A stretch of DNA of 23,778 nt from a virus: positions 1-23,778 of the IMG/VR virus record IMGVR_UViG_3300021957_006654; one strand, written 5' to 3'. Below, one piece after another: positions 9,514-21,413 of this stretch (within the stretch, counting starts at the first letter, position 1; every line of letters begins with the position of its first letter). A program made the position numbers and the translations under genes. Under the pieces are notes generated by a model. It saw only the letters and a list, made by a program, of their open reading frames with translations, did no database searches and was not told where the DNA came from.

Positions 9514-10491
9514 ATGAGTTTATTAAAAGAAAGAGTTGTCTACAAACCCTTCGAATATCCCCAAGCATACGATTACTGGCTTAAACAACAACAGGCACAT
9601 TGGCTACATACAGAAGTACCGATGGCACAAGACGTAACCGATTGGAAGTCTAATATGAAAGACCACGAAAAGAACGTTGTTGGTCAGATTCTAAAAGGAT
9701 TTGCTCAAACAGAAACAGTTGTTAATGATTACTGGTCAACACTAGTAACTAAGTGGTTTAGGAAACCAGAAGTAATAATGATGGGCACTACTTTAGGTTC
9801 TAGTGAAACAATTCATGCAGAAGCTTACTCTTTATTAAATGAACAATTAGGTTTAGATGACTTCTCAGAGTTTTTAGAAGATGAAGCTACTATGGCTAAG
9901 ATAGAAACGTTAATGAATGTTAGAGACCACCATGATGGTACTCCTAACTGGCATGAAAGAGCTAAATCATTAGCTATATTTTCTGCATTTACAGAAGGAG
10001 TTAATTTATTTAGTTCATTTGCAGTTTTGCTATCTTTTAAAATGAGAAATAAACTTAAAGGTGTAGGTCAAATAGTAGAATGGTCTGTAAGAGACGAATC
10101 TCTTCACTCTGACGCTGGATGCTGGTTATTTAGAACTCTTATGGAAGAAAATCCTAAATTTAAAACTAAAAAGCTAATTAATGAAATAGAAGATGCAGCT
10201 GAAATGATGATGAAATTAGAGTTTGATTTTATAGATAAAGTATTTGAATTAGGAGACTTAGAAAATCTAACTAAAGATGAGCTAAAGAATTTTATTAAAC
10301 ATAGAATTAATACAAAGATGAAGGATTTAGGTCTTACACCTATTGTACCATCAGCAGAGATAGACAAAGGAGCATTAAAAACAATGAAATGGTTTGATGC
10401 AGTAATAGCAGGTAAACAACATACAGACTTCTTTGCAAGCAGAGTAACAAATTATAGTAAAGGTCACCTTGATTGGTCGACAGCATTTTAA
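9514..10491 (+). CDS. nrdB: Class I ribonucleotide reductase, small subunit
   Basis: 325 residues. It holds the dimetal/radical cofactor that starts dNTP synthesis by the large subunit. Metal ligands in order: E67 (at the position of E. coli Asp84, 31 residues before the next ligand), E98 and H101 (E98-T-I-H101), E161, and E195-x2-H198 (DESLH). The radical tyrosine is kept as Y105 (E98-TIHAEA-Y105). The first ligand is Glu rather than Asp, as in several non-classical subclasses, so cofactor metal and subclass cannot be assigned from sequence alone. There is no ATP-cone. It has its own promoter and a structured leader, and nrdA follows 10 bases after the stop. The protein ends SKGHLDWSTAF, a plausible tail for docking to NrdA. 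Confidence 0.93.
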   Translation: MSLLKERVVYKPFEYPQAYDYWLKQQQAHWLHTEVPMAQDVTDWKSNMKDHEKNVVGQILKGFAQTETVVNDYWSTLVTKWFRKPEVIMMGTTLGSSETIHAEAYSLLNEQLGLDDFSEFLEDEATMAKIETLMNVRDHHDGTPNWHERAKSLAIFSAFTEGVNLFSSFAVLLSFKMRNKLKGVGQIVEWSVRDESLHSDAGCWLFRTLMEENPKFKTKKLINEIEDAAEMMMKLEFDFIDKVFELGDLENLTKDELKNFIKHRINTKMKDLGLTPIVPSAEIDKGALKTMKWFDAVIAGKQHTDFFASRVTNYSKGHLDWSTAF

Positions 10492-10501
10492 ATAAAAGGT
10501 T

Positions 10502-12217
10502 ATGACACTAACAGTAGATTATTCCCAATGGGAAAAAGGAAAAGATTATCCAGAATGGATGAATGAAGTTTCGTTAGCAACTATTTCTAACGGATACTTA
10601 CTACCTGGAGAAACACCAAAAACAGCATTCAGAAGAGTAGCTGATACTATTGCAAAAAGATTAGATCGCCCAGATTTAGCAAATAAATTTCACCGTTATA
10701 TGTGGAAAGGTTGGTTAAACTTAGCATCACCAGTTCTCTCTAATACAGGAACTGATAGAGGATTACCAATATCTTGTTTTGGTATAGATACACCCGACTC
10801 AATTAGAGGTATAGGGTTAACTAATGCTGAATTAATGAGACTAACTTCTTTAGGAGGTGGAGTAGGAATAGGATTATCTAAAGTAAGAGGTAGAGGTCAA
10901 AAAATAGGGGACGGTTCAACTGGCAATTCTGAAGGAGTTGTACCATGGGCTAAAATTTATGACTCTACTATCATTGCTACTAATCAAGGTGCTGTAAGAA
11001 GAGGAGCAGCATCAGTAAATCTTGACATTAACCACCCAGATATCAAAGAATACCTACAAATTAGAAGACCTAAAGGAGATCCAAATAGACAGTGTTTAAA
11101 TTTACATCAGTGTATTATTGTAGATGATGCATTTATGCAAAGACTTGAACATAGAGAGACTGAAGCTATGGAACTATGGGTACAGATACTTAAATCCAGG
11201 GTAGAAACAGGGGAACCTTATATAATGTTTAGTGATAATGTTAATAATGACAATCCACCTGCATATAAAAAGAACAACTTAGATGTTAGTATGACTAATA
11301 TATGTTCCGAGATTACTTTACATACAGATGAAGAACATTCATTTATTTGCTGTTTATCATCAGTTAATTTAACTAAATGGGATGAATGGAAAAATACTGA
11401 TTTAGTAGAAACTTCAATATACTTCTTAGATGGAGTATTAGAAGAATTTTTAACTAAAACTTCCGGAAGAGAATCATTAGCTAGACCTCATAGATCTGCA
11501 AAAAAGGGTAGAGCAGTAGGTTTAGGTGTATTAGGATGGCATACTCTATTACAATCTAAGAGAGTACCTTTCTCATCTATAGCAGCTACATCACTTACTA
11601 ACCAAATATTCTCAGATATTAAAAATAAAGCAGAAGCTGCTTCAAGACAACTAGCTGAAGAGTACGGAGAGCCTTTATGGTGTAAGGGTACTGGTATGAG
11701 AAATACACATTTACTTGCAATTGCACCAACAGTATCAAATAGTACAATAGCAGGAGGAGTCTCAGCAGGAATAGAACCAATACCTGCGAATGTATTTACT
11801 TTTAATTCAGCAAAAGGTACTTTTATTAGAAAAAATAAAGCTTTAGAAGAGTATTTAGAAGAAAAAGGTGCTAATACTGAAGAAGTATGGGACCAAATTA
11901 TGAAAGATAGAGGTAGTATAGCAAATCTACCAGAAGATATTATGCCTGCAGACGATAAACCAATATTTTTAACGTTTGCTGAGATAAATCAGTTGCAATT
12001 AGTAGAGCAGGCAGCTGCTAGACAGAAATATATTGATCAAACACAGTCATTAAATTTAGCGTTTGATCCAACAGATAGTCCTAAGTTTATTAATGAGGTA
12101 CATCAAACAGCTTGGAGACTTGGAATTAAAACATTATATTATTTAAGAACAGATTCAGTAATCAACGGAGATATAGGTTCAAGAACCGCTCTAGATTGCC
12201 TATCATGTGATGGTTAA
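10502..12217 (+). CDS. nrdA: Class I ribonucleotide reductase, large subunit
   Basis: 571 residues. It reduces ribonucleoside diphosphates to dNDPs. Active-site features: C92 (PISC92FG, the first redox Cys), N266-x-C268-x-E270 (the thiyl radical Cys with its Asn and Glu), C283/C284 (second redox Cys region, CCLSSVNL), the adjacent tyrosines in TLYYLRT for radical transfer, and a C-terminal C566-L-S-C569 pair that thioredoxin can reduce. It is shorter than E. coli NrdA (761) because the N-terminal ATP-cone is absent; the overall activity site for dATP inhibition is therefore missing, which would let dNTP synthesis continue at high dATP. AAAAGGTT abuts the ATG. Its 3' end overlaps the next small gene. 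Confidence 0.93.
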   Translation: MTLTVDYSQWEKGKDYPEWMNEVSLATISNGYLLPGETPKTAFRRVADTIAKRLDRPDLANKFHRYMWKGWLNLASPVLSNTGTDRGLPISCFGIDTPDSIRGIGLTNAELMRLTSLGGGVGIGLSKVRGRGQKIGDGSTGNSEGVVPWAKIYDSTIIATNQGAVRRGAASVNLDINHPDIKEYLQIRRPKGDPNRQCLNLHQCIIVDDAFMQRLEHRETEAMELWVQILKSRVETGEPYIMFSDNVNNDNPPAYKKNNLDVSMTNICSEITLHTDEEHSFICCLSSVNLTKWDEWKNTDLVETSIYFLDGVLEEFLTKTSGRESLARPHRSAKKGRAVGLGVLGWHTLLQSKRVPFSSIAATSLTNQIFSDIKNKAEAASRQLAEEYGEPLWCKGTGMRNTHLLAIAPTVSNSTIAGGVSAGIEPIPANVFTFNSAKGTFIRKNKALEEYLEEKGANTEEVWDQIMKDRGSIANLPEDIMPADDKPIFLTFAEINQLQLVEQAAARQKYIDQTQSLNLAFDPTDSPKFINEVHQTAWRLGIKTLYYLRTDSVINGDIGSRTALDCLSCDG

Positions 12218-13425: not shown

Positions 13426-13456
13426 CGTTTGCCTATACGCTTCAAATACCTGGCAA
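13424..13456 (+). promoter_or_regulatory. Possible pseudoknot between the 98-residue gene and queC
   Basis: AGCGT (13424-13428) pairs with ACGCT (13437-13441), and TTGCC (13429-13433) pairs with GGCAA (13452-13456). The order 1a-2a-1b-2b is that of an H-type pseudoknot, with a 10-base A-containing third loop. The first stem overlaps the upstream stop codon, and the element ends 17 bases before the queC ATG. The stems are short, so chance is a real possibility. It does not match the preQ1-I consensus that I know. Confidence 0.3.
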
Positions 13457-13473
13457 ATTTAATTACTATACAA

Positions 13474-14265
13474 ATGGAAAAAAATGTTGTAGTTAGTCTT
13501 AGCGGAGGGATGGACTCCTCAACTTTATTACTCAGATGTTTATCAGAGTATGATAATGTAACAGCTATATCTTTTGATTACGGTCAAAAACATAGAGTTG
13601 AACTTGAAAGAGCACAATCATTAGTGGATTATTTAAACGATAATGGTCAGTATGTTAATTATCAAGTTATTAAATTAGAAGGTTTGGTTAATTTATTAGA
13701 TTCAAATCTTGTAGAAGGAGGTGATGATGTACCAGAAGGTCATTATGAAGAAGAAAATATGGTAGCGACTGTGGTACCTAATAGAAATAAAATTTTCTCT
13801 TCTATTACTCAAGCAGTAGCTTTATCTATAGCTAAAAGAACTGAAGAAGAGTGTGATATCGCTCTAGGTATTCACGCTGGTGATCATGCAATTTACCCAG
13901 ACTGTAGACAAGAGTTTAGAGATGCTGATTATGAAGCATTTAAAATTGGTAATTGGGATGCAGATACTGTAGGTTTTTTCATACCTTATATAGAAACAGA
14001 TAAATTAGGAATATTAAAAGATGGGCAAGAATTGGTTAAAGAGCTTGGAATTAATTTTGAAGATGTATATAAACGTACTAATACTTCTTATAAGCCTTTT
14101 CCTAGCGGGAATAGCGACTATAAATCCGCAAGTTCAGTGGAAAGGATTGAAGCATTTATTGGCTTGGGTGTCGATGACCCTGTTCAATATGAGGACGAAA
14201 CTGGACCAGTAGATTATTCAGTAGCTAAAACACACGTAGAAAAATTATTAGCAGATTATGCGTAA
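13474..14265 (+). CDS. queC: QueC-like 7-cyano-7-deazaguanine synthase, zinc cysteines lost
   Basis: 263 residues from the ATG at 13474; a TTG 45 bases upstream is in frame but lies in a structured region. QueC converts 7-carboxy-7-deazaguanine to preQ0 using ATP and ammonia. The PP-loop is S10-G-G-M-D-S15. The FDYGQKH motif and a VVPNRNKIF segment match the family. The C-terminal zinc site, normally four Cys (SC...CxxCxxCVER), reads SY206...D215-Y-K-S218-A-S-S221-VER, so all four Cys are replaced while the flanking ERIEAF...GVDDP is kept. The fold is probably conserved with a changed or metal-free site. The product could be preQ0 or a related 7-substituted base. queD and queE lie about 6 kb downstream. 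Confidence 0.85.
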   Translation: MEKNVVVSLSGGMDSSTLLLRCLSEYDNVTAISFDYGQKHRVELERAQSLVDYLNDNGQYVNYQVIKLEGLVNLLDSNLVEGGDDVPEGHYEEENMVATVVPNRNKIFSSITQAVALSIAKRTEEECDIALGIHAGDHAIYPDCRQEFRDADYEAFKIGNWDADTVGFFIPYIETDKLGILKDGQELVKELGINFEDVYKRTNTSYKPFPSGNSDYKSASSVERIEAFIGLGVDDPVQYEDETGPVDYSVAKTHVEKLLADYA

Positions 14266-14401
14266 GAAACTATCAAAATACGTAGAAGTATGTAAATGTA
14301 ATTGGAGAGAAATATTTGCATTATCATTTGTATTGCATTTTGTTTTCGATTGGTTTATATTCGCTCTAGGAGTTTTGTTAGGGATGCATTTAGGACATTA
14401 A
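14258..14401 (+). CDS. Mini membrane protein
   Basis: 47 residues, ATG inside the queC 3' end (8-base overlap), stop one base before the next ATG. A basic start (MRKKLSKY) with Cys12 and Cys14, then one hydrophobic segment (about residues 19-42) rich in Phe, Leu and Val. Probably a single-pass inner-membrane protein. The close fit between two genes supports it. Function unknown. Confidence 0.55.
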   Translation: MRKKLSKYVEVCKCNWREIFALSFVLHFVFDWFIFALGVLLGMHLGH

Positions 14402-14402
14402 T

Positions 14403-14729
14403 ATGAGAAAATTATTTTTAATAATAGCGTTATTTTTTACTTTCAATAGTTTGGAAGCTCAAAAAGTAGAGAAAATAGATCCATCATTGTATGGATACTG
14501 GATAAACTTGGATAATGAAATACTTATTATACAAGTAAACAACACCTTTACAAGAAGAAATGGATCAGAGATTATTTCACAAGGTGAATTACAGGTAGTA
14601 GATGGAGAATTATTAGTTATTAGAACTGATATTGAAGAAGAATATTTATTAGGATTTACTATCAGAAATGATATTTTTGTTGTAGCTAAACCTGACAGTT
14701 CTCAGGCTTGGGTATTTACAAGATTATAG
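14403..14729 (+). CDS. Small secreted protein
   Basis: 108 residues with a clear Sec signal peptide (RKLFLIIALFFTFNSLEA) and likely cleavage before Gln20, the AQ pattern common in Bacteroidota. The mature part (about 89 residues) is predicted to be mostly beta: GYWINLDNEILIIQVNNTF, then alternating strands ending SSQAWVFTRL, reminiscent of small lipocalin-like domains. No cysteines are in the mature region. It is one of four exported proteins here and may act in the periplasm or outer membrane. Exact role unknown. Confidence 0.7.
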   Translation: MRKLFLIIALFFTFNSLEAQKVEKIDPSLYGYWINLDNEILIIQVNNTFTRRNGSEIISQGELQVVDGELLVIRTDIEEEYLLGFTIRNDIFVVAKPDSSQAWVFTRL

Positions 14730-14739
14730 TATTAAGGAT

Positions 14740-14811
14740 TGCGGGGTGGAGAAGTGGTATCTCGCCGGGCTCATAACCCGGAGGTCGCAGGTTCGAATCC
14801 TGTCCCCGCCA
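14740..14811 (+). tRNA. Initiator-type tRNA-fMet (CAT)
   Basis: A complete cloverleaf can be drawn. Acceptor GCGGGG (14741-14746) pairs with CCCCGC (14804-14809); T8 and G9 follow. D stem GAGA/TCTC (14749-14752, 14760-14763). Anticodon stem CCGGG/CCCGG (14765-14769, 14777-14781) with loop CTCATAA and anticodon CAT at 14772-14774. T arm GCAGG-TTCGAAT-CCTGT (14787-14803). Three initiator hallmarks are present: position 1 (T14740) and 72 (C14810) do not pair; the anticodon stem has three consecutive G:C pairs next to the loop; and the D stem has A11:T24. A73 is followed by CTA, so the CCA end would be added or repaired by host enzyme. The body resembles bacterial fMet tRNA. Confidence 0.9.
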
Positions 14812-14834
14812 CTACGTTTTTTAAAAATGTAATT

Positions 14835-15746
14835 ATGAATAAATCAATTTTTATTTTAATGTTTGCACTTGCCGGAGTGAGTGTGAGCTGTGAGAAATCC
14901 GACTGGTTTTCTCCTGACGAGGTAGATGCAATCAAAGCTGGATATAATGTTCAGACACAAGATTTGCAGTTTGCAAATAATGCATTAACTACCCAAGTTA
15001 CTGATCTTACAACACAGGTGACGAATTTAACTACTGAAGTTGAAACGTTAACTGCATCTGTAAGTACATTAACTACATCAAACGGTACATTAACAACCGA
15101 AAATACAGCGTTATCAGCTACTAATACAGCTAATGTAACGACTATTGCAGGTTTAAATGATGATGTAACCGCTTTGACGTCTCAAGTTACAACTCTGACA
15201 ACAGAAGTTGCAGACTTAGAGGCAGATATAGTAACATTAAACACTACTATTACAAACTCAGGTGCTACTAACACTGACTTAACTAGTCAGATTACTACTT
15301 TAACAGCTACTAATACTACATTAGCAGCTCAAGTAACTACGTTGCAAGCTGAGGCAGATGCTTTAGAGGCTAATGTCTTAACTATGAAGAACTTTAAATC
15401 TCTTAGAGATAAGTTAGATGTTATGGTAGCAGCAACTATTTCAGATACTAATTTAAATAAAGCTATTGACTCTATTTCTATAGGTCTTACTAGCACAAGT
15501 CTTACACCATCTGTATTAGATGGGTTGATAAGCGCGGAAGCAGATTGGCTATTTGATAATGCCATTAAATCTGGGACTGTATCAATGACTACTGCAGCTA
15601 GCAGTTTTTATGATACTTCTGCAGATACAAACGTGGTTAATTACAGAACATTAGTTACTGAATTAACTGCTGCATGGAATGCTGCTAAAGAATCACAATT
15701 AATTTTATGGTTCATCGAGTTTATTAACGAGTACGAAAATCTTTAG
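14835..15746 (+). CDS. Coiled-coil lipoprotein, probably cell-envelope
   Basis: 303 residues from the ATG at 14835; the open frame upstream runs through the tRNA and is not coding. Residues 1-19 form a signal peptide ending GVSVSC, a Bacteroidota-like lipobox, with the following residues EKSDW acidic. Residues about 45-195 are long heptads with Leu/Val at a/d and Thr in most other places (LTTQVTDLTTQVTNLTTEV), giving a parallel coiled coil. The C-terminal 95 residues form a helical domain ending in aromatic residues (LILWFIEFINEY). I propose a surface- or periplasm-anchored rod. A role in blocking superinfection or remodelling the outer membrane is possible but only inferred. A terminator follows. 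Confidence 0.7.
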   Translation: MNKSIFILMFALAGVSVSCEKSDWFSPDEVDAIKAGYNVQTQDLQFANNALTTQVTDLTTQVTNLTTEVETLTASVSTLTTSNGTLTTENTALSATNTANVTTIAGLNDDVTALTSQVTTLTTEVADLEADIVTLNTTITNSGATNTDLTSQITTLTATNTTLAAQVTTLQAEADALEANVLTMKNFKSLRDKLDVMVAATISDTNLNKAIDSISIGLTSTSLTPSVLDGLISAEADWLFDNAIKSGTVSMTTAASSFYDTSADTNVVNYRTLVTELTAAWNAAKESQLILWFIEFINEYENL

Positions 15747-19950: not shown

Positions 19951-20136
19951 ATGGAAAATAAAGAAAAAAAGGTTATGAATCAAGCTCACCCTGACGCAAA
20001 AAAACATCAATTTGTGTCGTTTATTAAATCAGGAATTCGTATATTTGGATATATACTACTGCCATTCAATATATTGGCAGGCGCTAGTGTACTAGTAGTA
20101 TCAGAAGTAATAGGTATAATCGAAGAATTAGTTTAA
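19951..20136 (+). CDS. Small membrane protein
   Basis: 61 residues. A hydrophilic start, then SFIKSGIRIFGYILLPFNIL and GASVLVVSEVIGIIEELV, two hydrophobic stretches that may form a hairpin in the inner membrane. The pattern resembles a short protein common in marine phages. An in-frame ATG at 19975, preceded by AAAAGGTT, could be the real start (53 residues). First gene after the promoter, upstream of queD. Confidence 0.65.
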   Translation: MENKEKKVMNQAHPDAKKHQFVSFIKSGIRIFGYILLPFNILAGASVLVVSEVIGIIEELV

Positions 20137-20145
20137 AAAAAAGTT

Positions 20146-20634
20146 ATGGGAAAATATCAATCAACAAAGCTATTTGACAATTATTCAGTAGCATTAAGAC
20201 AACATAAAGCAGCTCATTCACATTGTGAGTTATTACACGGGTATGCTTTAAAATTTAAAGTATGGTTCGAATCTATTGAACCAATGGAAGAAAAACAATT
20301 AGACGAAATGAATTGGATTATGGATTATGGTGGATTTAAATCTACTGATGCAGAACCAACTCCTGGTAACGGTCTAAAAGATTGGATGAATTATATGTGG
20401 GATCATACTGTATTAATTGAAAAAGATGATCCTCAATTAGAGACATTTAAATACATGGAGGAATTAGGTCTATGTGCTCTAAGAGTAATGGATGCTATGG
20501 GTGCAGAATCTTGTGCTAAAATGGTATTCGATAAGTTTAACGAAAGAATGGCTTTAACAGGCGGAGGTAGAGTCAAAGTAGTTAAAGTAGAATGTTGGGA
20601 AGCAGAGAGAAACTCATCAATATACGAAGGTTAA
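20146..20634 (+). CDS. queD: QueD, 6-carboxytetrahydropterin synthase-like
   Basis: 162 residues. It makes 6-carboxy-tetrahydropterin from dihydroneopterin triphosphate in the 7-deazaguanine pathway. Features: KAAH24 (first zinc His), C27 (catalytic Cys), H31-G-Y33 where the usual motif is HGH, WIMDYGGFK (family motif), WDHTVLIEKDD (catalytic His region) and a final ECWEAERNSSIY (Glu that binds the pterin). The third zinc His is Tyr33; His26 might substitute. Its stop overlaps the queE ATG (TAATG). Confidence 0.85.
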   Translation: MGKYQSTKLFDNYSVALRQHKAAHSHCELLHGYALKFKVWFESIEPMEEKQLDEMNWIMDYGGFKSTDAEPTPGNGLKDWMNYMWDHTVLIEKDDPQLETFKYMEELGLCALRVMDAMGAESCAKMVFDKFNERMALTGGGRVKVVKVECWEAERNSSIYEG

Positions 20635-21413
20635 TGTCATTAGGTAGAGTAGAAGATTACGATAAAAACTTACCTATTGTAGAAATCTATACTGCTGTTC
20701 AATCTGAAGGTTCAAGAGCAGGGTATCCTACAGTTGTTATTAGAACTACTGGATGTACTCATAGATGTTACTTTGGAGAAGGAGGATGGTGTGATAGTTG
20801 GTATACTTCTATACATCCAGAAAAAGGTAAGTTTACCTTTAATGATATTATCAAAATGTATGATGATAATCCACATATATCTGAAATGATGCTAACAGGG
20901 GGTTCTCCTACTATGCATAAAAAACTTGTTAACGAACTAACACATCTTGCTCATGAGAGAGATATCTTCATTACTATGGAAAATGAAGGAAGTCATTTCC
21001 TTCCTACTGACTTTCCTATTAACCTCCTTAGTATTAGTCCTAAATTCAGTAATTCAGTTCCTGTTATCGGGGTTGAGACTCCTGAAGGAAAAATTACTGA
21101 TGAGAGAATGATTAAACAGCATAATAAGTTTAGACTTAATTATCCTGCAATAAAAGAAAGTATAGCATATCATTCAGATTACCATATTAAACCTGTATGG
21201 GACGGTAAAGATGAAAATGCTCTTAAAGAAATATTAGAGTGTTTAGAAATATTAGATACTCCTCAGGATAAAGTATGGTTTATGCCGGCAGGAGATAGTA
21301 GAGAAGCTTTACATAAGTCTTACCCTATATTATTTGATTGGGTGAGAGATAATGGTTATAGAATGACATGGAGACCCCATATCATAGCATTTGAAGATCA
21401 AAGAGAAGTATAA
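20634..21413 (+). CDS. queE: QueE, 7-carboxy-7-deazaguanine synthase
   Basis: 259 residues from the ATG at 20634, which overlaps the queD stop (TAATG); an in-frame ATG 42 bases upstream lies inside queD. A radical SAM enzyme converting carboxy-tetrahydropterin to 7-carboxy-7-deazaguanine. The start has EIYTAVQSEG and a RTTGC motif. The cluster cysteines are C41-x3-C45-x7-C53 rather than CxxxCxxC, with YFGEGGW between the last two; QueE proteins are known for unusual spacings. LTGGSPTM binds SAM, and SISPKFSNS fits the family. It needs reduced ferredoxin or flavodoxin, and an FNR gene starts at its stop codon. Confidence 0.88.
   Translation: MSLGRVEDYDKNLPIVEIYTAVQSEGSRAGYPTVVIRTTGCTHRCYFGEGGWCDSWYTSIHPEKGKFTFNDIIKMYDDNPHISEMMLTGGSPTMHKKLVNELTHLAHERDIFITMENEGSHFLPTDFPINLLSISPKFSNSVPVIGVETPEGKITDERMIKQHNKFRLNYPAIKESIAYHSDYHIKPVWDGKDENALKEILECLEILDTPQDKVWFMPAGDSREALHKSYPILFDWVRDNGYRMTWRPHIIAFEDQREV

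Follow-up and report, generated by a model that had tools for sequence, protein, structure and literature searches.

Initiator tRNA is the special type of tRNA that starts every protein. Phages are known to encode it: cyanophages carry an initiator tRNA-fMet gene, and T5 is listed with tRNA-fMet (review PMC4810235). The window analyzed here—a stretch of 23,778 bases that makes up a whole IMG/VR virus record—resembles these phages in bearing an initiator tRNA. However, while the initiator is one among many tRNAs in T5 and the cyanophages, the CAT tRNA of the window is the sole tRNA gene on the contig, and it lies in an exchangeable slot for a single tRNA.

Initiators also occur widely in sequence collections. 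A search of the named phages with the initiator of a related contig (L121) yielded 479 records, with one annotated tRNA-fMet among the matches listed. We scored four of the matches with covariance models, and three are clear initiators: the tRNA-fMet of Stenotrophomonas phage vB_Sm_QDWS359 (88.8 bits as initiator, 74.2 as elongator), the tRNA-Met of Mycobacterium phage Erdmann (86.6 and 75.8), and an unannotated tRNA of Prevotella phage Lak-B4 (91.5 and 68.5). The match in Klebsiella phage Roth01 scores as an initiator weakly. The three clear cases share the excess of the initiator score with the window, although these phages are unrelated to that of the window; in vB_Sm_QDWS359, unlike the window, a second tRNA lies directly 3′ of the initiator. 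Moreover, one initiator pattern found 60 IMG/VR stretches, some of them from an unrelated phage family (about 60 kb) in which the initiator stands alone. The preliminary description of this DNA had treated a phage initiator tRNA as unusual, which is overstated in view of T5, the cyanophages, and the collections. The window tRNA is itself ordinary and adds one more case to the known phage initiators. The surprise lies in the setting, a slot that holds different single tRNAs in the relatives, which is more unusual than the initiator gene.

In L393 (10120-10352, minus strand), from an unrelated phage family, only 3 nt separate the end of the lone initiator from a small ORF (...GGYALLPFNIVVACIVLIISELIGIIEEMV), which resembles a 61-aa ORF of the window. 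Similar initiators are present in L370, L387, L415, and L418. A second tRNA-like sequence lies just upstream of the L393 initiator (about 10430-10510, minus strand), and the similar upstream matches in related contigs fall below the tRNA cut-off.

Identity of the window tRNA

We aligned tRNAs of three kinds from Bacteroidota-class genomes (initiator, elongator Met, and Ile-CAT) and built a covariance model for each. The window tRNA scores 95.4 bits with the initiator model, 64.2 bits with the elongator Met model, and 50.8 bits with the Ile-CAT model, corresponding to margins of 31 and 45 bits. The held-out elongators score 64-67 bits as initiators and 97-101 bits as elongators, and the viral Ile-CAT tRNAs obtain their top score from the Ile model. 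These scores rule out the elongator Met and Ile-CAT identities, the outcome that the preliminary description had named as its refutation, and bear out the preliminary reading of the gene as a phage-encoded initiator tRNA.

ARAGORN reports a tRNA-Met(CAT) at 14740-14812, and Rfam RF00005 matches 14740-14811 over the whole model with 63.4 bits, flagging 1:72 as a non-standard pair. The gene forms a full cloverleaf with a CAU anticodon. Read directly, the acceptor end has an unpaired T1·C72 and A73. The D stem consists of G10-C25, A11-T24, G12-C23, and A13-T22, with the purine11:pyrimidine24 feature present as A:T, and the anticodon stem CCGGG/CCCGG provides G:C pairs at 29:41, 30:40, and 31:39 around the loop CTCATAA. 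The three initiator marks named in the preliminary description—the unpaired 1:72, the three G:C pairs, and A11:T24—are all correct. They occur together in 121 of the 131 distinct host initiators and in none of the 64 other host tRNAs; A11:T24 and the three G:C pairs are present in 131/131, and the unpaired 1:72 in 121/131. While the 131/131 is partly built in, because the host initiators were fetched by initiator-like patterns, the 0/64 is free of that bias, with none of the three marks present in any of the 16 other CAT tRNAs or the 48 tRNAs with other anticodons. In addition, the formylase determinants (PMC9976931)—G2:C71, C3:G70, G4:C69, A73, and the unpaired 1:72—are all recognizable in the window tRNA, which is thus predicted to be formylated and to enter the P site.

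The surroundings are those of a phage. The replication block has a T4-like order, with a family A polymerase fragment, a gp32-like SSB, a UvsX/RecA-like ATPase, a 5′-3′ exonuclease, a DnaB helicase, ribonucleotide reductase, and thioredoxin; 3′ of it, queC is followed by a variable region, queD, a radical SAM gene occupying the queE position, and genes of the ferredoxin type (Table 1). These genes uphold the view that the contig is viral, and not bacterial, at the tRNA. Bacterial contamination is ruled out by the phage genes on both sides of the tRNA, in an order repeated in other viral contigs. In a megablast comparison of the whole window with the named phages, the tRNA is the only part that matches.

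Table 1. Features of the window in and around the tRNA slot
Feature	Position	Strand	Remarks
queC-like gene	13429..14265	+	Pfam PF06508 (1.3e-36); PHROG 1550; order common to relatives
tRNA slot	14266..14834		Also in L121, L132, L146, L168, L145, L147, L157, L269, and others
Small protein gene, signal-peptide-like N-terminus	14403..14729	+	Stop codon ends 10 nt 5′ of the tRNA
Initiator tRNA-fMet(CAT)	14740..14811	+	A73 at 14811; CCA not encoded (CTACG after A73)
Spacer, tRNA A73 to next start codon	14812..14834	+	23 nt
Coiled-coil lipoprotein-like gene, directly 3′ of the tRNA	14835..15746	+	L121 homologue, 76% identity
61-aa ORF	19951..20136		Resembled by the small ORF of L393
queD and queE-like genes	20146..21413		

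A CAT tRNA of L380 (2681-2754) scores equally as an initiator (78.3 bits) and as an elongator (78.7 bits). Next to it, in a large array of tRNAs, are one clear initiator and one clear elongator.

Initiators of related phages and hosts

Searches with QueC and with the small subunit of RNR identified the relatives, 160 loci in a large group of viral contigs. Two of them (L121 and L132) have an initiator at the place equivalent to that in the window, with the same neighbors and the same T1·C72. Related contigs have four more initiators at other places (L427, L431, L432, and L434), with A1·A72 in three. In these six initiators, 1:72 is always unpaired while the mismatch letters vary, and every stem pair is intact. 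Such a mismatch, kept while its letters change between T·C and A·A, is expected from selection for initiator function. In the seven phage initiators, 100% of the stem cells are paired and 9/20 pairs have changed on both sides, a value reached by 0/500 shuffles and by none of the slid controls; the alignment is small, its sequences are related, and the outcome of the shuffles should not be read as a probability. At the level of sequence, the compensatory stem changes and the kept initiator marks demonstrate that selection acts on the tRNA fold. An exact match to the 5′ part of the window tRNA was absent from the other viral contigs.

The larger related contigs have only 0-6 tRNAs each. Four include an initiator, which is the sole tRNA in one contig of 177 kb (L432). 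This initiator-like tRNA (165-237) has A1·A72, and its anticodon stem has two of the G:C pairs instead of three, as 29:41 is A:T.

Escape from nucleases by mutation of the anticodon loop has been proposed for phage tRNAs (PMC10264068). The same paper reports that tRNA-fMet is generally absent from the phage repertoire where the Shigella VapC cleaves it at the anticodon. Loop-mutation escape is not seen here, as the host loop CTCATAA is unmutated in 7/7 phage initiators. A search for an RNA ligase for tRNA repair gave no match, and neither did its control. Peptide deformylase was found neither in 17 related contigs nor in the window, with positive controls in 10 bacteria, so that nothing else points to a dedicated initiation program.

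The closest host initiator is that of Balneolia L062, which has T1·C72 and nearly the whole 3′ half in common with the window tRNA. In contrast, most of the sampled Bacteroidota initiators have T·T, C·A, or C·T at 1:72. The window tRNA also differs from the host initiators in its 7-nt D loop, A13:T22, and C27:G43. Balneolia as the host is only a lead, suggested by the closest initiator and by the only T·C among the hosts in a biased sample.

The exchangeable slot 3′ of queC

A tRNA occupies the slot in 25 of the 80 distinct relatives whose sequence extends 600 bases or more beyond queC; it is single in 24, and one relative has a pair (Ala plus Gln). Six isotypes are represented: Ala, Gln, Glu, Ser, Thr, and initiator Met. 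The slot is without a tRNA in 55/80, about two thirds, and the slot tRNA is therefore dispensable. On the queC protein tree, in which many forks are weakly supported, the isotype switches at least 10 times among the occupied slots, and the initiator arises in two separate places. The queC-like gene is, as judged from gene order, the conserved left anchor of the slot. The small protein gene 5′ of the tRNA has homologues at the equivalent place in L121, L132, L146, and L168, and no Pfam or PHROG match. The genes 3′ of the slot vary strongly, and include lipoprotein, radical SAM, carbamoyltransferase, and queD genes. A narrow literature search found no earlier description of an exchangeable queC-tRNA slot.

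That isotypes replace one another in the slot speaks against a tie between the initiator and a special initiation program of the phage group. The preliminary description had linked the initiator to missing Shine-Dalgarno (SD) sequences, and it is highly improbable that the tRNA specifically favors SD-less or leaderless phage mRNAs. SD-like motifs precede only 1/23 genes in the window, as compared with 39% of the genes in T4 by the same method. However, they are equally rare (0-5% of genes) in ten relatives in which the slot tRNA is Ala, Ala plus Gln, Glu, or Thr, and Bacteroidia in general make no use of SD sequences (PMC9976891, PMC6847099). The absence of SD sequences, being equally typical of these relatives and of Bacteroidia, fails to explain the initiator, and the proposed link is not borne out.

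Explanations for the slot tRNA

What does the phage gain from the tRNA? Our preferred reading, with a probability of roughly 0.6, is that the gene encodes an ordinary, functional, host-type bacterial initiator tRNA of a T4-like phage of marine Bacteroidota or Balneolota, which tops up the host pool and is one occupant of an exchangeable slot. We favor an initiator because the initiator model is far ahead, the marks are absent from the 64 non-initiators, the formylase determinants are present, and the 1:72 mismatch is kept. The slot is part of this reading because L121 and L132 have the same slot and neighbors, and because the isotype has changed so often on the queC tree. The identity, the selection on the fold, and the conserved, compact setting are the parts that the sequence comparisons establish. 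The reading is weakened by the many relatives without a slot tRNA, the lack of a deformylase, and the host-identical anticodon loop.

The tRNA is wedged between two genes on the same strand, and would probably be co-transcribed with queC. RNase P and 3′-processing activities of the host would free it from the transcript, and the host would add the CCA. Considering the identity elements, the host MetRS would then charge the tRNA and the host formylase would formylate it. Used in initiation, it may enlarge the initiator pool during infection, and may make up for host initiator that is turned over or cut by defenses aimed at tRNAs. The lineage appears to take up, host by host, the tRNA that is limiting for it.

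Alternatively, the tRNA fold may be selected as punctuation for any isotype, with 5′ and 3′ cleavage cutting the operon transcript and leaving the gene that follows with a short, defined leader. The occurrence of six isotypes at one place is consistent with this idea, as is the spacing. The distance from the tRNA end to the next ATG is 8-19 nt in 17/21 slots examined (23 nt in the window), while this length is found in 13% of all gaps between genes and in 20% of those without overlap; this pattern was seen post hoc, and the relatives share ancestry and are not independent samples. The tRNA begins 5-10 nt after the preceding stop in 13/21 slots, and a tRNA within 25 nt of the next start is rare elsewhere (2/116 in host contigs, 15/97 in other viral contigs). 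Nevertheless, we consider punctuation unlikely: cleavage alone has no need of the isotype marks, including the 1:72 mismatch, that are kept; most relatives have no tRNA in the slot; and the short gap could be the minimum leader needed by any gene after a tRNA. Passive capture of a host tRNA, as a neutral passenger or at a recombination hot spot on the edge of a variable gene cassette, would fit the strong variation 3′ of the slot and the many relatives without a slot tRNA. This is quite unlikely as well, as the compensatory stem changes and the kept initiator marks indicate selection on the RNA, and no integrase family was found among the ORFs scanned. It is very doubtful that both roles are combined, with the isotype-exchangeable tRNA acting as an operon cutting signal whose maturation yields short-leader mRNAs for ribosomes without SD pairing, while the freed tRNA also aids translation.

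The slot provides a natural experiment, in which close relatives differ in the single tRNA carried at one place. With the background fixed, ideas about phage tRNAs—codon supply, defense escape, and RNA processing—can be compared. The initiator is the telling case, because it is useless for codon compensation in elongation.

The queC, queD, and queE-like genes flank the variable region and may serve DNA modification. All of the slot tRNAs have anticodons other than GUN, and they are therefore not queuosine substrates.
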